Positions 4,070-19,482 of a stretch of 64,000 bases of DNA are shown in pieces. Both the position numbers and the translations under genes were made by a program. The first letter of the stretch is position 1; each line of letters opens with the position of its first letter. The notes beneath the pieces were generated by a model that did no database searches, was not told the DNA's origin, and saw nothing but the letters and a program-made list of their open reading frames with translations. Origin of the DNA: Gemmatimonadota bacterium (GTDB taxonomy: Bacteria; Gemmatimonadota; Gemmatimonadetes; Longimicrobiales; Gaopeijiaceae); assembly GCA_027623325.1 (NCBI GenBank), contig JAQBXY010000009.1, positions 1-64,000 of the forward strand, in the 5' to 3' direction.

Positions 4070-4908
4070 CCGGGGGTCTCCTCGTCCGGTACCTTGAAGA
4101 AGCGCTCCGAAACCCGTTCAACATCCTTCAGCGATCGCCCGGTACCCCCGCGGCTCAACATGACCAGTTCGGCGGCGACGGCGACGGCGATCTCCTCGGG
4201 TGTCTCCGCCCCGATATCGAGGCCTACAGGCGCGTGGATTCGGTCGATGAGGCTGCGGTCGATCCCCTCGTCCACGAGTTGAACGTAGGTCGCGCGCACC
4301 CGTCGTCGGCTGCCGATCATGCCGATATACGCGGGCGCGGGATCGGCCCGAAGGGCCCTGAGTAGGCACTCGTAGTCGTATTTGTGCCCACGAGTCACGA
4401 GGAGAAGATGCGATCGTGCATGGAGCGGTACCTCGGCGAACGGATCGGAGAAGTCCACACGAAGAAGCCGGTCGGCGTCGGGAAAACGCTCTCGGGTCGC
4501 GAAGTCGGGGCGATCGTCGAGAACCACGACCCGGTAGCCCAGCAGGGCCCCGAGATGCGCCATCGGTTGCGCAACGTGTCCGGCGCCGACGACGATGAGT
4601 TCCTGGACGGGTCTCCGCACTTCGAGGTACAGCTCGATCGCACCGGAGTCGGTTTCCACCCTACGCAGACCGTCGTGTGCTCGCGGATCGTCGATGGCGA
4701 GATCCATGAGTCCGACGGCCTCTGCGTCGAGCGGCGCAGAGCCGAGGCTCCCGTGAACAATCGACGTCCCCTCCACCCGCACGCGCGCCAGGCGGTGGCC
4801 GAGGACCTCGGCATCGGGGGACGCCACGACCGTGACCGCCGCGGCCGTGCCGCCTGCTTCAGCGGTCGAGATCAGCAACGCTGACGTCTCAGCAGCTCTG
4901 AGCGTCAT
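4066..4908 (-). CDS. xdhC: XdhC-family protein with Rossmann domain
   Basis: 280 residues. The C-terminal half is the XdhC Rossmann domain: ELIVVGAGHVAQPMAHLGA, then VVVLDDRPDFA, then the hallmark YIGMIGSRRRV. The N-terminal ~100 residues resemble a diverged XdhC_CoxI domain, and the glycine/cysteine motif of the small partner is not evident there. It is expected to act in maturation or sulfuration of the molybdenum cofactor for a xanthine dehydrogenase/CoxL-type hydroxylase. It overlaps the MocA-like gene upstream and the small XdhC gene downstream, each by ATGA, which argues for a stoichiometric complex. Confidence 0.85.
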   Translation of the reverse strand: MTLRAAETSALLISTAEAGGTAAAVTVVASPDAEVLGHRLARVRVEGTSIVHGSLGSAPLDAEAVGLMDLAIDDPRAHDGLRRVETDSGAIELYLEVRRPVQELIVVGAGHVAQPMAHLGALLGYRVVVLDDRPDFATRERFPDADRLLRVDFSDPFAEVPLHARSHLLLVTRGHKYDYECLLRALRADPAPAYIGMIGSRRRVRATYVQLVDEGIDRSLIDRIHAPVGLDIGAETPEEIAVAVAAELVMLSRGGTGRSLKDVERVSERFFKVPDEETPG

Positions 4909-9840: not shown

Positions 9841-11406
9841 TCATCCGTCGGAGTTCCCGGCCCACGAGGGTTCGACCCGTGGAAAGAGGGGAAGCCCCTT
9901 CTCGACCCGACGACCCCTCACGTCGACCGCCACCGCTTCCTCGAGGGTGGGCACACCCGAGATTCCCAGCCAGGTTGCCAGCTGTTCCATCTTTTCGGGC
10001 GTGACGGGTTGAAAGAGGGCGCACAGCACGACGAGTGCCCGCGTGAGCGATGTGAGCGTTTCGTCCAACGCGCCGGGACTGTCGGCGTCTCGGGCCTGAG
10101 TCCACGGCTGTCTCTCTTCCACGTATCCGTTGGCGGTCCGAGCCAGATCCATCGCAGCCGCAAAGGCGTCATGCACTTTGAAAGATGCCATGGAGCTACG
10201 GACCACCTCGAGCGTTTTCCGGATCTCCTCATCGAGGCCCGCACCCGGCGCATCTGGAACGACGCCGTCCCGGTACTTCACGATCATCGAGGTGACTCGG
10301 CTGGCTAGGTTGCCCAGCACGTTCGACAACTCTTCGTACCGGGTCAGAAACCGCTCGGGCGTATAGGATGCGTCGCCACCCGTCGGCATCTCGCGCATGA
10401 GGTACCATCGTACCGCGTCGGTACCGAACTCCTCGCGAAGCGACAGCGGGTCGACAACGTTGCCGAGAGACTTGGACATCTTCGTCTCGCCCACGACCCA
10501 CCAGCCGTGCGATAGGATTCGCTTCGGCACCGGGAGCCCGACCCCCATGAGCAGGGTGGGCCAGTAGACGGCGTGGGTGGTGAGAATGTCCTTGCCGATT
10601 ACGTGGAGGTCAGCGGGCCACCACGAATCGGATACATCTTCGAAGCCCTGGTGGCCGACGTCGGCCGTCGGGTCGATCGCACGCGATGCCGTGAGGTAGT
10701 TGATGAGCGCGTCGACCCAGACGTAGGCGACGTGTTCGCTGTCGAAGGGCAGGGGAATACCCCACGCCACTCGCGACTTCGGCCGCGAGATCGAGAGATC
10801 GCCGAGGGGCTGACGCAGGAATCCGAGAATCTCGTTCCGCCGAACCTCCGGCACGATCCAATCCGGGTTGGCCTCTATGTGCGCCACCAGCGCGTCTTGA
10901 TACGCGCTCATCTTGAAGAAGTAGTTCTTCTCCTCGACGTGGGTGACCGGCTTGCGACAGATCTGGCAGGTCCTTTCTTCGCCGATGTCCTTTTCCGTCC
11001 AGTAGCGCTCGTCGGACACGCAGTACCATCCGGAGTACACGCCCTCGTAGATCTGGTCGAGGTCCCAGAGTCGCTGCACGAAGGCGGTCACTACCGCCCT
11101 GTGCTCGGCCTCGGTGGTGCGAATGAAGCGATCGTGAGAGATCCCTAGACCATCCCACGCCGACTCGAAGCGTTCGGCCATCGTGTCGCACAGTTCGATC
11201 GGCGTCAGTCCGCGTTTCTCGGCCTCGTCCTGGATCTTCTGACCATGCTCGTCGGTGCCGGTCAGAAAGAGGACCTCTCGACCGTTCTGCCGGTGGAAGC
11301 GGGCGAGCACATCCGTCAGGATCGTCGTGTAGGCGTGGCCGAGGTGCGGCTCGCCCGAGGCATAGTAAATCGGCGTCGTGAGGTAGGTGCGCGGTCGCTC
11401 ACTCAT
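9841..11406 (-). CDS. metG: Methionyl-tRNA synthetase
   Basis: A 521-residue class I aminoacyl-tRNA synthetase that charges tRNA-Met. The HIGH motif is HLGH at residues 21-24 and KMSKS is at 309-313. A single CxxC knuckle (CQIC, 147-150) in the connective-peptide region marks the shorter MetG type. There is no C-terminal tRNA-binding (Arc1p/EMAP) domain, which fits the length. The ATG overlaps the stop of the PSP1 gene (ATGA), so the two are translationally coupled in an accA-PSP1-metG operon. Confidence 0.97.
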   Translation of the reverse strand: MSERPRTYLTTPIYYASGEPHLGHAYTTILTDVLARFHRQNGREVLFLTGTDEHGQKIQDEAEKRGLTPIELCDTMAERFESAWDGLGISHDRFIRTTEAEHRAVVTAFVQRLWDLDQIYEGVYSGWYCVSDERYWTEKDIGEERTCQICRKPVTHVEEKNYFFKMSAYQDALVAHIEANPDWIVPEVRRNEILGFLRQPLGDLSISRPKSRVAWGIPLPFDSEHVAYVWVDALINYLTASRAIDPTADVGHQGFEDVSDSWWPADLHVIGKDILTTHAVYWPTLLMGVGLPVPKRILSHGWWVVGETKMSKSLGNVVDPLSLREEFGTDAVRWYLMREMPTGGDASYTPERFLTRYEELSNVLGNLASRVTSMIVKYRDGVVPDAPGAGLDEEIRKTLEVVRSSMASFKVHDAFAAAMDLARTANGYVEERQPWTQARDADSPGALDETLTSLTRALVVLCALFQPVTPEKMEQLATWLGISGVPTLEEAVAVDVRGRRVEKGLPLFPRVEPSWAGNSDG

Positions 11407-12269
11407 GCCGGTGCACCATCTGCTTCGGGTCGCGCAGGAGCAGGCGACCCGACCTCGGCCTTGAGCTCGTCGAGAGAGATGCGGCGCCGATCACCTTCCG
11501 TGCTGCGGAGCGTGACCGTGTCGTGCCAGATATCGACTCCGACGACACGCTCCTCTCCCAGCGAAGTCCGTAGCGTACGTCCCTCGCGCGGGAATCGGCG
11601 ACGCGATTCGACATAGGTGCGGTGTTCGTACATGAGACAGCACATAAGCCGACCGCAGCAGCCGCTGATCTGAGCCGGATTGAGCGAGAGATTCTGGTCC
11701 TTGGCGAGCTGGAGCGAGACGGGCTTCAGTTCCGGCAGCCAGGTCGAGCAGCAAAGCTCTCGTCCGCACCGACCGACCCCCCCCAGCATCGCAGCTTCGT
11801 CACGCACGCCGATCTGTTTCAGTTCGATCCGGGCCCGGAAGGTGCGCGCGAGATCGCGCACGAGTTCCCGGAAGTCGACGCGTTTTTCCGCCGTGAAGTA
11901 GACGGTGAGTTTGTTGCGGTCGAACTGCCACTCGGCCTCGGTGACCTTCATTCTGAGGTTGTGCTGCGTAACGAGCTTTCGAGTTTCCGCTCGGACGCGA
12001 TCTTCGTCGGCCCTCGTGGCGTGCCAGCGTGACAGCTCGTCTTCGCGAGCCACACGCACGACGGAATGTTGGGGGGTCGGCGTTGCACATCCACCGTTGG
12101 ATGAAGAGCACTTGCGCTCGGCGATGGTGCCTACGGCCGAGACCTCTCCGAGGTCCTCACCCCGATCGACCTGCACGATGACATGGCTGCCCGGACGCAG
12201 GTCCATTTCGGAATAGGAGAAGTAGCCCTTCCGGGTCCCCTTGAAACGGATCTCAGCGAATCCCGGCAT
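11403..12269 (-). CDS. ricT: PSP1 domain protein (RicT/YaaT-like)
   Basis: 288 residues with a PSP1 domain. The protein is cysteine-rich: a CSSSNGGC segment near residue 50, and a cluster CGRELCCSTW followed by GCCGRLMCCLMYEH. In the Bacillus relative YaaT/RicT, such cysteines help bind Fe-S clusters in a complex that affects RNA processing and phosphorelay. Conservation of the cluster suggests the same chemistry, though the partners RicA and RicF are not seen here. It starts 4 bases after the accA stop and overlaps metG. Confidence 0.88.
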   Translation of the reverse strand: MPGFAEIRFKGTRKGYFSYSEMDLRPGSHVIVQVDRGEDLGEVSAVGTIAERKCSSSNGGCATPTPQHSVVRVAREDELSRWHATRADEDRVRAETRKLVTQHNLRMKVTEAEWQFDRNKLTVYFTAEKRVDFRELVRDLARTFRARIELKQIGVRDEAAMLGGVGRCGRELCCSTWLPELKPVSLQLAKDQNLSLNPAQISGCCGRLMCCLMYEHRTYVESRRRFPREGRTLRTSLGEERVVGVDIWHDTVTLRSTEGDRRRISLDELKAEVGSPAPARPEADGAPA

Positions 12270-12273
12270 CTAC

Positions 12274-13236
12274 CTATTCTTCGCGCCAGGCGCCGATCGC
12301 CTCGTACTTGGCCCACCGTTGCGCCAACAACTTCTTGGTCGGGAGCTTCTCGAGTTCGCCGACCACTCGATGTAGGCAGGCGCCCAGATTCTGGGCTGTT
12401 TCGTCCCAATCCGCGTGTGCGCCGCCGACGGGTTCGGGCACGATCTCATCACAAATGCCGAAGTCGTGGAGGTCGGTCGCGGTGAGCCGAAGTGCGTTCG
12501 CCGCCTTCTCCTTGTGCGCCGCCGAGCGCCACAGGATCGCTGCGCACCCCTCTGGAGAGATCACGGAGTAGATCGAGTGCTCGAGCATGAGGATCTTGTC
12601 GGTCACTCCGATGCCGAGCGCTCCACCCGACATGCCTTCGCCGATCACGGCCGATACGATCGGCACCTTCAGACGCGACATCTCGCGCAGGTTGAACGCG
12701 ATCGCCTCACTGATGCCGCGTTCCTCGGAACCGATTCCCGGGAACGCACCGAGCGTGTCGATGAAGCTGACTACCGGACGCCCGAACTTCTCCGCCTGCC
12801 GCATGAGGCGAAGGGCCTTTCGGTACCCCTCGGGGTGCGGCATGCCGAAGTTGCGGCGCAGGTTCTCCTTCATGTCGCGGCCTTTCTGCTGGCCGATGAT
12901 CATGACGGAACGCCCCTTCAATCTGCCCCAACCCCCGACGATCGCCTCGTCGTCGCGGAAGTTCCGGTCCCCGTGAAGTTCCACCCAATCGGTGAATATC
13001 CGCTCGACGTAATCAAGGGTGTAAGGCCGCTGAGGATGGCGCGCGACCTGCACTTGCTCCATCGGCTTCAGGTTGTTGTACGTCCGCAACCTGAGGTCCT
13101 CCAGCTTCTCGTGGAGGACCTTCACCTCATCGGACACGTCGATTCCTCTCCGGTCCGCCAGGTCCAGGAGCTTGTTGATCTGATCCTGGATCTCGACGAT
13201 ATCACTCTCGAAATCTAGATGCACGGCGACTGCCAA
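12274..13236 (-). CDS. accA: Acetyl-CoA carboxylase carboxyltransferase subunit alpha
   Basis: 320 residues, the normal AccA length. It is one half of the carboxyltransferase that moves CO2 from biotin to acetyl-CoA, making malonyl-CoA for fatty-acid synthesis. Recognisable segments are the N-terminal LDFESDIVEIQDQINKLLDL helix, IGQQKGRDMKENLRRNFGMP and GIGSEERGISEAIA. No ATG is available: the frame begins with TTG at 13236, and a GTG at 13224 is the alternative. Neither has a clear ribosome site. The beta subunit is not in the window. Confidence 0.95.
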   Translation of the reverse strand: MAVAVHLDFESDIVEIQDQINKLLDLADRRGIDVSDEVKVLHEKLEDLRLRTYNNLKPMEQVQVARHPQRPYTLDYVERIFTDWVELHGDRNFRDDEAIVGGWGRLKGRSVMIIGQQKGRDMKENLRRNFGMPHPEGYRKALRLMRQAEKFGRPVVSFIDTLGAFPGIGSEERGISEAIAFNLREMSRLKVPIVSAVIGEGMSGGALGIGVTDKILMLEHSIYSVISPEGCAAILWRSAAHKEKAANALRLTATDLHDFGICDEIVPEPVGGAHADWDETAQNLGACLHRVVGELEKLPTKKLLAQRWAKYEAIGAWREE

Positions 13237-13343: not shown

Positions 13344-15053
13344 CTAGCTGCCCCCCTTCAACACCCAGCCATCGGGGTCGAGGACGATGCGGGTCGGCTC
13401 CGATGCCATCGGCCCGAGCTCCAGAACAGTCTCCCGCTCGAACAGCTCGACATCGGTGCGAACCTCTCCGTCGGGGCCGATCACGGACACGGTCATCGGA
13501 ACCCTGAACGTGGGCCAATCCGCGCGCTGCGTCTGGCGGATGACGAGATCGAGCCTGCCGCCGGATCCGGTCGATGCAGCTGTCCAAACTGGCTCTACTT
13601 CGAAGGTCGGGTACCCCGGCTCGTAGAACCACTGCTGAAAGAACCAACCGAGATCGCGCCCCGAGACTTCTTCCATGACGACCTGGAAATCCTCGGTCAG
13701 CACCGCGGAATGAAGATGGCGGCGGTAGTACTCACGGATCCCGGCGAAGAAGTCCTCGTCACCGACGATCCCTCGAAGCATGTGCAGGAGCCAGCCGCCC
13801 TTCGGGTAGTTGTTCGTATTGAGAAGGGCGAAGAGGTCGGTCTCCGACGGGTCATACATCGGACGATCGGCCTCTCCCGGGCCGAGGATTCGTTGCCGAC
13901 TCGCTTCCATGCGGTCGCGGAAGTTCTCGACACCGTCCGCGGCCTCGAAGAACTGAGCGCCGAAATACGTCGCGAACCCTTCGGACAACCAAAGGTGGTG
14001 CCAACTGGCCTCCGTGACGGCGTCACCGAACCACTGGTGAGCGATTTCGTGAGAGACCGTCCCCTCCATGTTTCGGCCGCCGGCGATGGCACCTTCGGAA
14101 TAGAAGATGGCCGAGGCGTTTTCCATTCCCCCGAATCGTGTGGCCGACTGCACGTTCGCGAGCTTCTCGAAGGGGAAGGGGCCGATCAACTCGCTGAAGT
14201 AGTCCACCATCGCGGCTGCCCGACGAAACGACGGCTCGGCCAGGTCGACGTCCTGGGGGTAGACCCAGGTCGTTACCTCGACACATCCGTCCTCACGCCA
14301 TGTAGCTGGTGCAAGTCCGCAGGCTGCCAGTCCGACGGTCCGGACTTCGAGGTCCGCCGCCCCGATCACCATGTTGTACGGCGAGATCGGGACGCCCACC
14401 TCCCAGACCCAGGTGCGGCGGTCTCCGGTAGGTCCGATAGCGGCGGCCGGTGTTGCGGCCGCCTCGGCGACCAGATGTCCGTTGGCGATCACCTTCCACT
14501 CCACGGGGGCGTGGACCGTATAACGAACCGTCGCCTTGTCGGCTGGGTGATCCACACTCGGGAGCCAGAATCGTGTGCGGTTGGGCCAATTGTCGACGAA
14601 GGCCGACGGTTCGCCGTGGACGTTCTCCCGAATGATCAGGCCGTCGTCCGGAATGCCCTGGTAGTGAACGCTGACCGAGGCGGTGTCCCCCGCCGAGAAA
14701 CGATCGAGCGGCACGGCGAGAATACCGTTCTCGTACCGGTATGTGGCGGCGGACCCGCCGAGCTCGACGCCAAGGACTTCGAGCCCGGAAAAGTCGAGCG
14801 GAAGTGTGGGCCCCTCTTGGCTGACCGCCACGCGCAGCGTTGTGATGCCCTCGAACCAGAGCACTCCCAGGCCGAGCCCGATCTCCACCTCGTAGTGGAT
14901 GACGTCAACGCCCGGGGCGTAAGCCCCCGGCGGCGGCGCGACCCCTGCCGGAATTGGCGCGGGCTCCTGTGCGAGGGACGGCGCCGCGAGCAGTAGGAGG
15001 GCCCCGAGCGTCGAAGGGACGATGCGGGCGAACGCGGAACTGTAACCGGTCAT
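13344..15053 (-). CDS. M1-family (gluzincin) aminopeptidase, secreted
   Basis: 569 residues. A signal peptide ends near AQEP (about residue 29). The substrate-N-terminus motif is GGMEN (308-312). The zinc motif is HEIAH (335-339) with the third ligand Glu358 after the usual 18-residue gap in WLSEGFATYF. The protein stops after the catalytic domain and a short beta domain, lacking the long C-terminal helical domain of PepN. It should remove N-terminal residues from peptides outside the cytoplasm. Its ATG overlaps the stop of the response-regulator gene (ATGA). Confidence 0.92.
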   Translation of the reverse strand: MTGYSSAFARIVPSTLGALLLLAAPSLAQEPAPIPAGVAPPPGAYAPGVDVIHYEVEIGLGLGVLWFEGITTLRVAVSQEGPTLPLDFSGLEVLGVELGGSAATYRYENGILAVPLDRFSAGDTASVSVHYQGIPDDGLIIRENVHGEPSAFVDNWPNRTRFWLPSVDHPADKATVRYTVHAPVEWKVIANGHLVAEAAATPAAAIGPTGDRRTWVWEVGVPISPYNMVIGAADLEVRTVGLAACGLAPATWREDGCVEVTTWVYPQDVDLAEPSFRRAAAMVDYFSELIGPFPFEKLANVQSATRFGGMENASAIFYSEGAIAGGRNMEGTVSHEIAHQWFGDAVTEASWHHLWLSEGFATYFGAQFFEAADGVENFRDRMEASRQRILGPGEADRPMYDPSETDLFALLNTNNYPKGGWLLHMLRGIVGDEDFFAGIREYYRRHLHSAVLTEDFQVVMEEVSGRDLGWFFQQWFYEPGYPTFEVEPVWTAASTGSGGRLDLVIRQTQRADWPTFRVPMTVSVIGPDGEVRTDVELFERETVLELGPMASEPTRIVLDPDGWVLKGGS

Positions 15054-16042
15054 CCTTTGCGCACCTGCTCGAAGGCTTCTACTTCGGTGAAGTCGCGGAA
15101 ACGGCCCCAATACCGGGCGTATGCCTGCGCCATGCGAGGGCGCAGGTCCACACGAGCGGCCCCGACGGATTGATACGCTGCCAGGGCCTCCATCTTCATG
15201 ACCATCTGCACACGCACGTCGACGAAGTGGGAGGGTGTAAACTCGAGCCCAGTCGTGGCGGTCTCGTATCCGAAGACGGTCGGCACTTCGGCGGCGGCCG
15301 TGCGGCCAATCTGCGACGCCTCGAAGCGGGCGGGGTCACGATCGTCCGGCGCCGGCAGATACACCGTCGTGGGTCTCAACTCGTTGATCGTACGACCGAT
15401 CAGGTCTCTCTGACCGTTCATGTTGCCGAAGAGCGTGCGGTCGACCCTCAGCTTGATACCGAGAATGCTCGCCGCGATCGAAGCCGCCTTGAGCTCTGTC
15501 GACGACATGTCGTCCTCGGTCGCGAGCAACGGAACAATCACCACGGAAGCACCTCGCTCCGCGGCGCGCATCAACGTGCCTCCGCAGCCCATCTCCGCGT
15601 CACCCAGTTGACCCTCGATCGCAAGGATGACCTCATCCTTCGTCGGTTCGGGGGCGTCCGCCCGCTCGACCATCGACCAGACTCGACTGACGAAGTCGTT
15701 CTGGCTGAGCGGCTTGATCATCACTTGGTCGGCGCCGGCTCGCAGTGCCTGTTCTTCGTAGTGGGCCTGGGTGTAGCCCGTCGTAACGAGCACGGGGACG
15801 GTGGGTGCCTTCGCGCGCATCGCACGAATGACCGCAAAGCCGTCGGTCCCCGGCAGGTTCAGATCGGTGACCAGGAGATCCCACGAGTCCGAGGCGATGC
15901 GTTTGACCGCCTGATCGCCGTCCTGGGCGTGCGTGACGCTGAAGCCTGGCAACGCGTTAAAGAACGCCTTGACCAGCGCGGCCTGATCGAAGGCGTCCTC
16001 TACGAAGAGGACACGAATGGTTTTGGGCGAATCCGAACTCAA
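15050..16042 (-). CDS. Response regulator receiver fused to a degenerate PIG-L deacetylase-like domain
   Basis: 330 residues. Residues 1-125 are a receiver domain with phospho-acceptor Asp60 (LLVTDLNLPGTDGF), switch Thr at VTTGY and Lys110 (MIKPLS). Residues 136-310 follow the PIG-L/LmbE fold (GCGGTLMRAAERGASVVIV). The catalytic HPDD motif is replaced by QLGD (145-148), and the later D-H zinc site is replaced by DPARF (236-240). One zinc-ligand Asp remains, but the His and the base Asp are lost, so deacetylase activity is unlikely. The start codon is TTG. No histidine kinase lies nearby. The output is probably binding or signalling rather than catalysis, which is inference. Confidence 0.8.
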   Translation of the reverse strand: MSSDSPKTIRVLFVEDAFDQAALVKAFFNALPGFSVTHAQDGDQAVKRIASDSWDLLVTDLNLPGTDGFAVIRAMRAKAPTVPVLVTTGYTQAHYEEQALRAGADQVMIKPLSQNDFVSRVWSMVERADAPEPTKDEVILAIEGQLGDAEMGCGGTLMRAAERGASVVIVPLLATEDDMSSTELKAASIAASILGIKLRVDRTLFGNMNGQRDLIGRTINELRPTTVYLPAPDDRDPARFEASQIGRTAAAEVPTVFGYETATTGLEFTPSHFVDVRVQMVMKMEALAAYQSVGAARVDLRPRMAQAYARYWGRFRDFTEVEAFEQVRKG

Positions 16043-16114: not shown

Positions 16115-17326
16115 CTAGGTCGCTCTCGGATCGGGTTCCGGAATAAAAAACCACACGATTAGGCCCATCAGGAGTACACATACGGCCGCCAGTGCCGTAT
16201 TCGAGCCATACCCGATGTACGCGAAGAGGGGTCCGGCCACGACACCTCCCAGCGCGAAGCCCATTTGACCGAGCGCCACCGTCAAGCTCATGAGCGACCC
16301 CCGCCGTTCGTCGGAAACCAGAGCGGTCAGCAGCGCTGAGAAGGGACTCACGCGCATGGCCACGAGCACCATGGTGAGGAAGAAGAAAACGTAGGCGGTC
16401 CACAGGTTCGTGACGACGTGGACCGTCAGGATCATCACGACGGACAGGCCGAGACACGCCATCAGGATGATCCCGCGCCGTCCGATGCGGTCGGAGAGCT
16501 TTCCCGCTCGAGGGCCCGTCAGCACGTTGGCCACGCCACCGATGAGGAACATGACGGCGATCTGGTCGGCCTGGATGTTCAGGTCGCGTTCGAGCCAGGT
16601 CGGCAGGTAGATGACGAAGACCGAGACGCCCAGGAACATCAGAAAGTATGCTGCGGCAGCCCACGCGATCTCGGGACGTCGGAGCATGTCCACGTAGTCG
16701 GCGGCGGCCTTCCCGATCGACAGCCGGTGCGCGGACCGCTTTACGTCCGGCTGAGGGATCTTCGCGATGATCAGCAACACCGTCATCGCCATCGTCCCGG
16801 CGAACAGGTAGAAAGGGGCCCGAAAGCCCCAGCGGCTCGCCATCAGAATCCCCAACGGAATGCCGACGATCTGTCCGAAGGCCGCACCGCTCATGACCCA
16901 GCCCGTCGCCCACCCTCGTCGTTCGTACGGGAGTGAGTCTCCGATGTACGAGACCGCCGCGCCGCTGAGCATTCCGCCGGCAGCGCCCGCAAAAATGCGC
17001 ACGGCCAGGAACGAGTAGTAGCCGGTGACGAATGCGTGGAGGGTGAGCGCGACGGTCATCGTCCCGCATCCCATGATGAGAATGCGTCGACGCCCGAACT
17101 TATCGGAGATGGGGCCCGAGATGATCGCGAAGATCGCCACCATCATCGAGTACACGGATACCAGCGTGCCGAGCACGGCATCGGAGATGCTCAGCTGGTC
17201 GCCGATCATGGGCAGGATCGGCGACAGGATCATCGTCTGGCTCGCCGACGAAAAGACCAGCAGCCAGAGGGTGAACACGATGAGGTACGGCGAAGTTTCG
17301 CCGTTCGTCTGGAGCGGTCGGGTCAA
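16115..17326 (-). CDS. MFS transporter
   Basis: 403 residues with twelve predicted membrane segments, including the motif A loop GPISDKFGRRRILIMG between helices 2 and 3 and a second copy (GKLSDRIGRRGIIL) in the C-terminal half. This is the drug/proton antiporter-like branch of the major facilitator superfamily; the substrate is not predictable. It starts at TTG, overlapping the TGA of the SDR gene (TTGA), so it is translated together with it. Confidence 0.9.
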   Translation of the reverse strand: MTRPLQTNGETSPYLIVFTLWLLVFSSASQTMILSPILPMIGDQLSISDAVLGTLVSVYSMMVAIFAIISGPISDKFGRRRILIMGCGTMTVALTLHAFVTGYYSFLAVRIFAGAAGGMLSGAAVSYIGDSLPYERRGWATGWVMSGAAFGQIVGIPLGILMASRWGFRAPFYLFAGTMAMTVLLIIAKIPQPDVKRSAHRLSIGKAAADYVDMLRRPEIAWAAAAYFLMFLGVSVFVIYLPTWLERDLNIQADQIAVMFLIGGVANVLTGPRAGKLSDRIGRRGIILMACLGLSVVMILTVHVVTNLWTAYVFFFLTMVLVAMRVSPFSALLTALVSDERRGSLMSLTVALGQMGFALGGVVAGPLFAYIGYGSNTALAAVCVLLMGLIVWFFIPEPDPRAT

Positions 17327-18099
17327 CCGCTCTTCCGATCCATATATCCCGGGTAACGCTGCACGGTGGGCATGATCACGAGATTGAAGATGTCCACGTG
17401 TTCCGGAGCATTCGCGACGTAGATGACCGCATCGGCGATGTCGTCGGCCGTGAGGGGGGTCGTGTCGGAGTACACCGACTTGGCGCGCTCGGCGTCGCCG
17501 TCGAAACGGACTTCACTGAATTCGGTCTCGGCCAGGCCCGGATCGACGCTGGACACTCGGATCTTCGTGCCGAGTAGGTCGATGTTCATGGCCTCACTGA
17601 GGGCCCGTACCGCGAATTTGGTCGCGTTGTAGACGGCGCCCTTCGGGTAAACCCAGTGCCCTGCGATGCTCCCGATGTGAATCACGTGACCCGAGTTGCG
17701 CTCGATCATGTGGGGGAGCACCGCGCGCGTCATATACAGCAGCCCCTTCACGTTGGTGTCGATCATATCGTCCCAATGATCGAGCGATCCGTCCTGCAGC
17801 TTGTCGAGACCCTTCGCCTTGCCCGCGTTGTTCAGGAGGATGTCCGGCACCCGTCCGTCCGCCACCAGCCCGTCAACGTAGGCACCGACCGCATGCCGAT
17901 CCGTGACGTCGAGCGCGTGAGCGTGGGCCTCGACGCCGTACTCCGTCGCGAGCGAGGCTGCGAGTGCCTGGACCCGCTCCACGCGTCGAGCCGACAGAAG
18001 GAGATGCGCCCCGCGCTCTGCGAAGTAGCGTGCGCACGCCGCGCCGATCCCGGCGGAAGCGCCGGTAATGAGCACCCATTTTCCAGCGAGTCTGTTCAT
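17323..18099 (-). CDS. SDR-family NAD(P)-dependent oxidoreductase (YdfG-like)
   Basis: 258 residues, classical short-chain dehydrogenase. The cofactor loop is TGASAGIGAACA, NNAG follows near residue 87, and the catalytic Ser/Tyr/Lys appear in HIGSIAG and YNATK. It is closest in pattern to NADP-dependent 3-hydroxy acid (serine/3-hydroxypropionate) dehydrogenases. The ATG is preceded by a 165-base divergent gap shared with the UMF1-type transporter, where no clear promoter was seen. Confidence 0.88.
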   Translation of the reverse strand: MNRLAGKWVLITGASAGIGAACARYFAERGAHLLLSARRVERVQALAASLATEYGVEAHAHALDVTDRHAVGAYVDGLVADGRVPDILLNNAGKAKGLDKLQDGSLDHWDDMIDTNVKGLLYMTRAVLPHMIERNSGHVIHIGSIAGHWVYPKGAVYNATKFAVRALSEAMNIDLLGTKIRVSSVDPGLAETEFSEVRFDGDAERAKSVYSDTTPLTADDIADAVIYVANAPEHVDIFNLVIMPTVQRYPGYMDRKSG

Positions 18100-18264
18100 G
18101 AGCGGGGTGGTGAGGATGGGCTCTTGGATGGCCGCTGAGACTCGCCAAGGCGACCGGCAGATGCAACTGGTGCGTACCGGACCGCGCTTCGACGGACCCG
18201 ACGAGACTTACGGAGGGGTCTTGCAGAGGCTAACGTGGCGCCCGCCCCCCTTACCGGAGACGGG

Positions 18265-19482
18265 ATGGACAAGAAACAAGTCGGAGCATGGGTGCTGTTC
18301 GATTTCGCCAACTCCGTGTATCCCGCCGTGATGACGACGGCGGTATTCCCTCTCGTCTATGTTCAGTCGATCGTCGCGGACGATGCCGGGCGGGGGGACT
18401 TCTTGTGGGGCCTCGGTCTGTCCGTTTCGGCGTTCATCGTCGCGACCTCGGCGCCCCTTCTCGGAGCGATCGCAGATCGGGGTGGCGCGCGGAAGAAGTT
18501 CATGATGGCGTACACCGCGTTGTGTTTGATCGGTGTAGCGTTGATCTCGACAATCGAGGTCGGCATGGCGGTGCGTGGGATTCTCCTTTTCATCGTCGCG
18601 AACGTCGGATTCGAGAGTGCCGTCGTGTTCTACAACGCCTACCTGCCCGACATCGTCCCGGCCGACAAACGAGGACAGGTTTCGGGACTCGGATTCGGGG
18701 TGGGCTATCTCGGATCGGCTCTCGGTCTGATCCTGGCCCTTCAGTTCGTCGACACGATCGAGGTCGTGTGGCTCATCGTCGCCGCGTTCTTCTTCGTCTT
18801 CTCGATCCCCGCCTTCTTGTATCTGCCCGCGGACGAGAAGGGGGAGATGAGCGTCGCCGCCGCCGCGCGGTGGGGACTCACCAATTTCAAGGTGATCGTC
18901 GGCGAGGTGTGGGCTCTCAAGGATCTGAGAAACTTCCTCTTCTCCTTCTTCTTCTACATCGACGGGGTCCTGACGATCATCGCCATGGCCGGGGTCGTCG
19001 CGGCTGGGACCTTCGGATTCTCTCAGTCGGAGACGATCGTCCTCTTCCTGATCGTCCAATTCTCGGCGCTGTTCGGAGCGTTCGCGCTTGCGAAACCAGC
19101 GGACCGGTGGGGTCCGAAGAAGATTCTCAACGGTGTATTGCTGCTGTGGATCACGGCCGGCATCTCCGCGTTCTTCATCCAGGACCGGAGCATCTTCTTC
19201 GGGCTCGCGGTCGTCGCCGGATTCGGCCTCGGCTCGGTTCAGTCGTCGAGCCGAGCCTTCATGGCCTCGCTGATTCCGGATGGCAAGGAGTCCGAGATGT
19301 TCGGCTTCTATGCGCTGTGCGGAAAATCCTCTTCCATGGTTGGGCCCCTGCTCTTCGGGACGGCGGCGGCTCTCGCCGGGGGAAACCAACGCCCAGGATT
19401 CCTGGTGCTGACCGCTCTCTTCGTGATCGGGCTCATTCTGCTCCAGCGCGTGCGGGATCCGCGGGCCCCGGTCACGGCGTAA
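18265..19482 (+). CDS. MFS transporter, UMF1/Atg22-like family
   Basis: 405 residues with about twelve membrane segments. The N-terminal signature WVLFDFANSVYPAVM is typical of the UMF1 (vacuole effluxer Atg22-like) branch, whose eukaryotic members export amino acids. A role in amino-acid or peptide movement would fit the hydrolase-rich surroundings but is only inferred. The ATG at 18265 has GGAGA a few bases upstream; the GTG at 18235 would add ten residues without improving the match. Confidence 0.9.
   Translation: MDKKQVGAWVLFDFANSVYPAVMTTAVFPLVYVQSIVADDAGRGDFLWGLGLSVSAFIVATSAPLLGAIADRGGARKKFMMAYTALCLIGVALISTIEVGMAVRGILLFIVANVGFESAVVFYNAYLPDIVPADKRGQVSGLGFGVGYLGSALGLILALQFVDTIEVVWLIVAAFFFVFSIPAFLYLPADEKGEMSVAAAARWGLTNFKVIVGEVWALKDLRNFLFSFFFYIDGVLTIIAMAGVVAAGTFGFSQSETIVLFLIVQFSALFGAFALAKPADRWGPKKILNGVLLLWITAGISAFFIQDRSIFFGLAVVAGFGLGSVQSSSRAFMASLIPDGKESEMFGFYALCGKSSSMVGPLLFGTAAALAGGNQRPGFLVLTALFVIGLILLQRVRDPRAPVTA

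Follow-up and report, generated by a model that had tools for sequence, protein, structure and literature searches.

Proteins of the LmbE/PIG-L superfamily (PF02585), such as MshB, BshB and TT1542, carry a metal motif composed of H-X-D1-D2 and a distal histidine, with D1 acting as the base (PMC4101496). In MshB, His13, Asp16, His147 and Asp15 are used, and His144 and Asp146 are also important (PMC4101496). Response regulators that have metabolic-enzyme domains and occur in narrow lineages are known as well, archaeal examples among them (PMC5847659). Our literature search, which did not cover the main output-domain reviews and therefore weighs little, returned no published description of a PIG-L domain as the output of a response regulator. 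In degenerate GGDEF and EAL outputs of response regulators, the receiver controls an enzyme-derived, non-catalytic domain that acts by binding.

The window studied here, a stretch of Gemmatimonadota DNA of 64,000 nucleotides taken at its full length, contains a response regulator gene at 15050..16042 on the minus strand. It encodes a 330-residue protein in which a receiver precedes a pseudo-PIG-L/LmbE output domain. The receiver (residues 8-128; 15659..16021, minus strand) was recognised by the Pfam scan, where Response_reg (PF00072) matched residues 11-121 with an E value of 4e-23, and by residue conservation in f1, the window's own family of Gemmatimonadota. The phospho-acceptor D60 (codon 15863-15865, minus strand), T88 and K110 (codon 15713-15715, minus strand) are all intact. 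Among distinct f1 receivers, D60 was found in 33/33, threonine or serine at position 88 in 33/33 and K110 in 32/32. In the AlphaFold model of the regulator (mean pLDDT 80.6), the receiver matches solved folds with Z values up to 22. By its receiver fold, acidic pair, phospho-acceptor aspartate, Thr/Ser and lysine, the protein belongs to the response regulators. It does not belong to the DNA-binding classes (OmpR, NarL and others), which have an HTH output: the Pfam scan gave Response_reg and PIG-L only, and the second domain folds as LmbE. The genome has 17 HATPase_c and 10 HisKA matches, all of them off the 91-kb contig that carries the window, and the regulator was therefore considered an orphan.

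The start codon was TTG or GTG in nine of the ten cases checked, which comprised the window gene (TTG, 16040-16042) and close relatives; ATG appeared only in L040. Such weak start codons may keep the regulator protein scarce. A promoter scan found nothing.

The output domain spans residues 137-328 (15059..15634, minus strand). As a single sequence, it gave a Pfam match to PIG-L at residues 147-235 with an E value of 8e-4 and 20.3 bits, under the 28.2-bit cut-off; PIG-L was matched by 18 of 20 relatives at E values up to 0.01. A profile built from 20 related output domains matched TT1542 (1uan, 6e-22), BC1534 (2ixd, 6e-18) and BshB (6p2t, 1e-17). The modelled domain superimposed on 2ixd, 6p2t and 1uan with Z values of about 21-22 over 183-190 residues. 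Because profile and fold matches agree, the assignment to the LmbE/PIG-L superfamily, by fold and descent, is sound and not due to chance. A reading of the sequence without database searches (the sequence-only reading) had described a receiver with intact Asp60 and Lys110 fused to a PIG-L/LmbE-like domain and had proposed structure prediction as a check; the description holds on both counts, and the predicted output domain does take the LmbE fold.

Catalytic positions were placed by alignment to 1uan and 2ixd. Where HPDD is expected, the window protein has QLGD (residues 145-148; 15599..15610, minus strand), and where HPDH is expected it has DPAR (residues 236-239; 15326..15337, minus strand). 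Two of the three zinc ligands are gone, His13 of MshB corresponding to Q145 and His147 to R239, and only the third, Asp16, is kept as D148. The base, Asp15 in MshB, has become G147, and neither helper residue survives: D236 stands where MshB has His144, and A238 where it has Asp146. The protein thus does not possess the H-X-D-D plus His site with a catalytic aspartate that characterizes the zinc deacetylases. The change from HPDD to QLGD had been seen correctly in the sequence-only reading, and its term pseudo-deacetylase suits a domain from which both histidines and D1 have disappeared. Two of its details need amending. The distal motif, given there as H-x-x-D-H turned into RDPAR, is indeed altered, but its canonical form in homologues is HPDH. 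The first histidine and the catalytic aspartate of HPDD are lost as stated, but the second aspartate, a zinc ligand, is kept as Asp148, which that reading had omitted.

To find out whether the QLGD change is conserved had also been suggested, and it proved to be family-wide. In the 32 distinct f1 fusion sequences compared, position 145 was never histidine and was arginine in 21/32, position 147 was glycine in 32/32 and never the catalytic aspartate, and position 148 was aspartate in 29/32 and glutamate in 3/32. Arginine occupied position 239 in 23 of the 30 fully readable copies. All f1 copies thus share the substitutions at 145 and 147; the distal motif is more variable. Glu148 occurs only where Arg239 is missing (3/3), a covariation suggestive of an Asp148-Arg239 salt bridge taking the place of zinc, but all three cases belong to one clade. 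We also considered a compensating zinc site made of other histidines or cysteines. Among the ten closest relatives, the output domain has no conserved histidine and a single invariant cysteine that is also found in stand-alone deacetylases, and such a site was rejected; a non-canonical metal site was excluded at the level of residue conservation. With the catalytic zinc site absent across f1, we infer that the output domain cannot run the known LmbE reaction and would have no deacetylase capacity by that route.

Could the domain still be catalytic under receiver control, through another metal site or without metal? Asp148 is kept, if as glutamate in three of the 32 sequences, and Asp234 is common. 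The hydratase GalB (5cgz, Z 21.7) has the LmbE fold too, which is thus able to change its chemistry. Moreover, one sampled fusion outside f1 keeps both HPDD and HQDH. Against this, the window protein has lost two of its three ligands together with the base and both helpers, the residues that could bind metal instead are either not conserved or ordinary for deacetylases, and Asp234 is not conserved in deeper members. We judge continued catalysis very unlikely.

The fusion with the intact site came from a census of 395 sampled Gemmatimonadota genomes (E < 1e-30), in which the receiver-PIG-L fusion was present in 33 genomes of f1 (counting that of the window) and in one other. Other phyla were covered by one scan with a single protein, set to pick up close relatives; plasmid matches were PIG-L deacetylases or unannotated stretches. 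The outlying fusion (L071, genome G215) belongs to another family of the class. It has the same architecture as the f1 fusions and the same ARYWGRF C-terminal motif, but its HPDD and HQDH are intact and its neighbours differ. Downstream of it and adjoining its end lies a gene that looks ATP-grasp-like by eye (L103:1085-2150). In its genus, the five other genomes contained no further intact fusion. For a single origin of the G215 and f1 fusions the support was 68, and alternatives gave AU p values of 0.55 and 0.65. As the tree does not decide between a shared and a separate origin, loss of catalysis after fusion is no more than plausible.

Selection on the gene was estimated by comparing it with eight relatives at 67-74% identity. 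In both domains, pN/pS was 0.23-0.40 and dN/dS about 0.10-0.26, the latter with dS near saturation, and in closer pairs the receiver and the output domain gave similar values. Dozens of output-domain positions are invariant among ten relatives. Purifying selection thus acts on both domains to a similar degree, and the protein is a maintained pseudoenzyme.

The gene has nonetheless been lost or damaged in several relatives. In G147, from the same genus, the order is MFS-M1-accA, and a short scar (L135, about 4190-4450, minus strand) joins the first ~10 and the last ~15 codons of the regulator gene, a clean deletion. The regulator is absent from G185 and G141, where the MFS gene directly precedes accA, and only a C-terminal remnant is left in G276. 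One copy carries an internal deletion (L060, G309) and others are frameshifted (L009/L063 in G104; L011/L044/L056 in G062), some of which may be assembly errors. Since the gene is deleted or frameshifted in several relatives, its function is dispensable. These losses would also be expected if the enzyme had become useless after fusion and the whole protein were decaying. Such decay is hard to reconcile with the low dN/dS of both domains, with the many invariant output-domain positions and with a Gly147 invariant over deep branches, and part of the frameshifts may not be real; we regard it as unlikely.

The distribution of conserved residues differs from that of an enzyme. In stand-alone deacetylases, conservation peaks at the HPDD helix (0.90), and in the fusions at residues 299-328 (0.71). 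No part of the output domain is better conserved than the C-terminal subdomain (residues 255-328, YETATTGL...ARYWGRF...EVEAFE; 15059..15280, minus strand), although within it the conserved stretch 309-318 is modelled at pLDDT < 50. Gly147, Asp148 and the glycine stretch 152-155 (GCGG) are nearly fixed in the fusions. To judge from these profiles, constraint is shifted from the active site toward the C-terminal end, with Gly147, Asp148 and GCGG as exceptions. The strong conservation of the C-terminal subdomain would also suit an output domain that serves for oligomerisation only, leaving the work to the receiver as in single-domain regulators. LmbE proteins do oligomerise; BshB forms a hexamer, presumably assembled from strand-exchange dimers (PMC4101496). 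However, the conservation of Gly147, Asp148 and the 152-155 glycines is not obviously needed for oligomerisation alone, which makes this explanation quite unlikely in our view.

Around the copies checked, and within the stretches covered, the locus reads SDR-MFS-RR-(M1)-accA-PSP1, RR being the regulator. Upstream lie an MFS transporter gene (16115..17326, minus strand) and, in closer relatives too, a short-chain dehydrogenase (SDR) gene (17323..18099, minus strand); divergent from the latter is a gene for an Atg22-like MFS transporter (18235-19482), kept beside the block in relatives. Downstream are genes for what we take, from sequence and family knowledge, to be an AccA-like acetyl-CoA carboxylase carboxyltransferase alpha subunit (12274..13236, minus strand) and a PSP1/RicT-like protein (11403..12269, minus strand). 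MFS, accA and PSP1 are the stable neighbours. The M1-family peptidase gene (13344..15053, minus strand) is an optional cassette. Its ATG overlaps the regulator stop by four bases (ATGA, 15050-15053), which bears out the overlap described in the sequence-only reading. The regulator occurs without M1 in L037 and L041-L043, and M1 without the regulator in G147; in L041 and L042, the regulator stop overlaps the accA start instead (TGATG). As the two genes are gained and lost separately, their association is incidental. M1 was accordingly rejected as the main functional companion, and its description as an odd companion of the regulator is better replaced by that of a removable cassette. In G120 (L007/L053), regulator and M1 form one open frame of 895 aa with no intervening stop, and an internal ATG precedes the M1 signal peptide; this joint frame may be genuine or may result from misassembly.

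Because the zinc site is lost while the switch is intact, the output domain probably works via binding and not via catalysis. The repurposing proposed in the sequence-only reading fits the purifying selection, the family-wide change and the intact receiver. The domain may bind a ligand or a partner, and may do so as a sensor or as an output. M1 as a meaningful companion of the regulator finds no support. Our preferred reading, with a probability of roughly 0.6, is that of an orphan regulator in which phosphorylation controls a non-catalytic binding domain. As the intact receiver suggests, Asp60 would be phosphorylated by a histidine kinase encoded elsewhere. Phosphorylation would alter the pose of the pseudo-deacetylase or its oligomeric state, and with it the grip of the domain on an anionic ligand or a protein partner. 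Contact may involve the conserved C-terminal subdomain and the mouth of the former active site, where arginine often replaces zinc ligands. Speculatively, an anionic ligand could sit in the Arg-substituted pocket, or the partner could come from the accA block, which would be the first place to look since the regulator and accA sit together in it and in some copies overlap. A more specific version holds that, once zinc was gone, the Rossmann-like LmbE fold again acquired a loop rich in glycine (G-D-x-x-x-G-C-G-G, following the first strand) and a pocket lined by arginine. The former deacetylase would then bind an anionic metabolite under the control of phosphorylation, possibly with a link to the accA block. 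We give this version little credence; if true, response-regulator outputs that bind ligands would gain a new class.

Overall, the family is a clear case of a catalytic site lost throughout in an enzyme domain joined to an intact phosphorylation switch. The phylum also has a fusion with an intact site as a natural counterpart, and by comparing the two the change from an enzymatic to a binding output becomes approachable. Annotation of these genes as PIG-L deacetylases would be incorrect. From general knowledge, the logic resembles that of the degenerate GGDEF and EAL outputs, although fold and ligand are unrelated. With the LmbE/PIG-L superfamily, the window protein shares the fold, the order of elements, the GCGG helix start and Lys283, and with TT1542 in particular the RYWG...E C-terminal motif; it departs from the superfamily in lacking the HXDD plus His motif, in having glycine in place of the base and in being fused to a receiver. 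Like response regulators with enzymatic outputs, it combines an intact receiver with an enzyme-derived domain over a narrow lineage range (PMC5847659), but unlike them its enzyme domain is, by sequence, catalytically dead.
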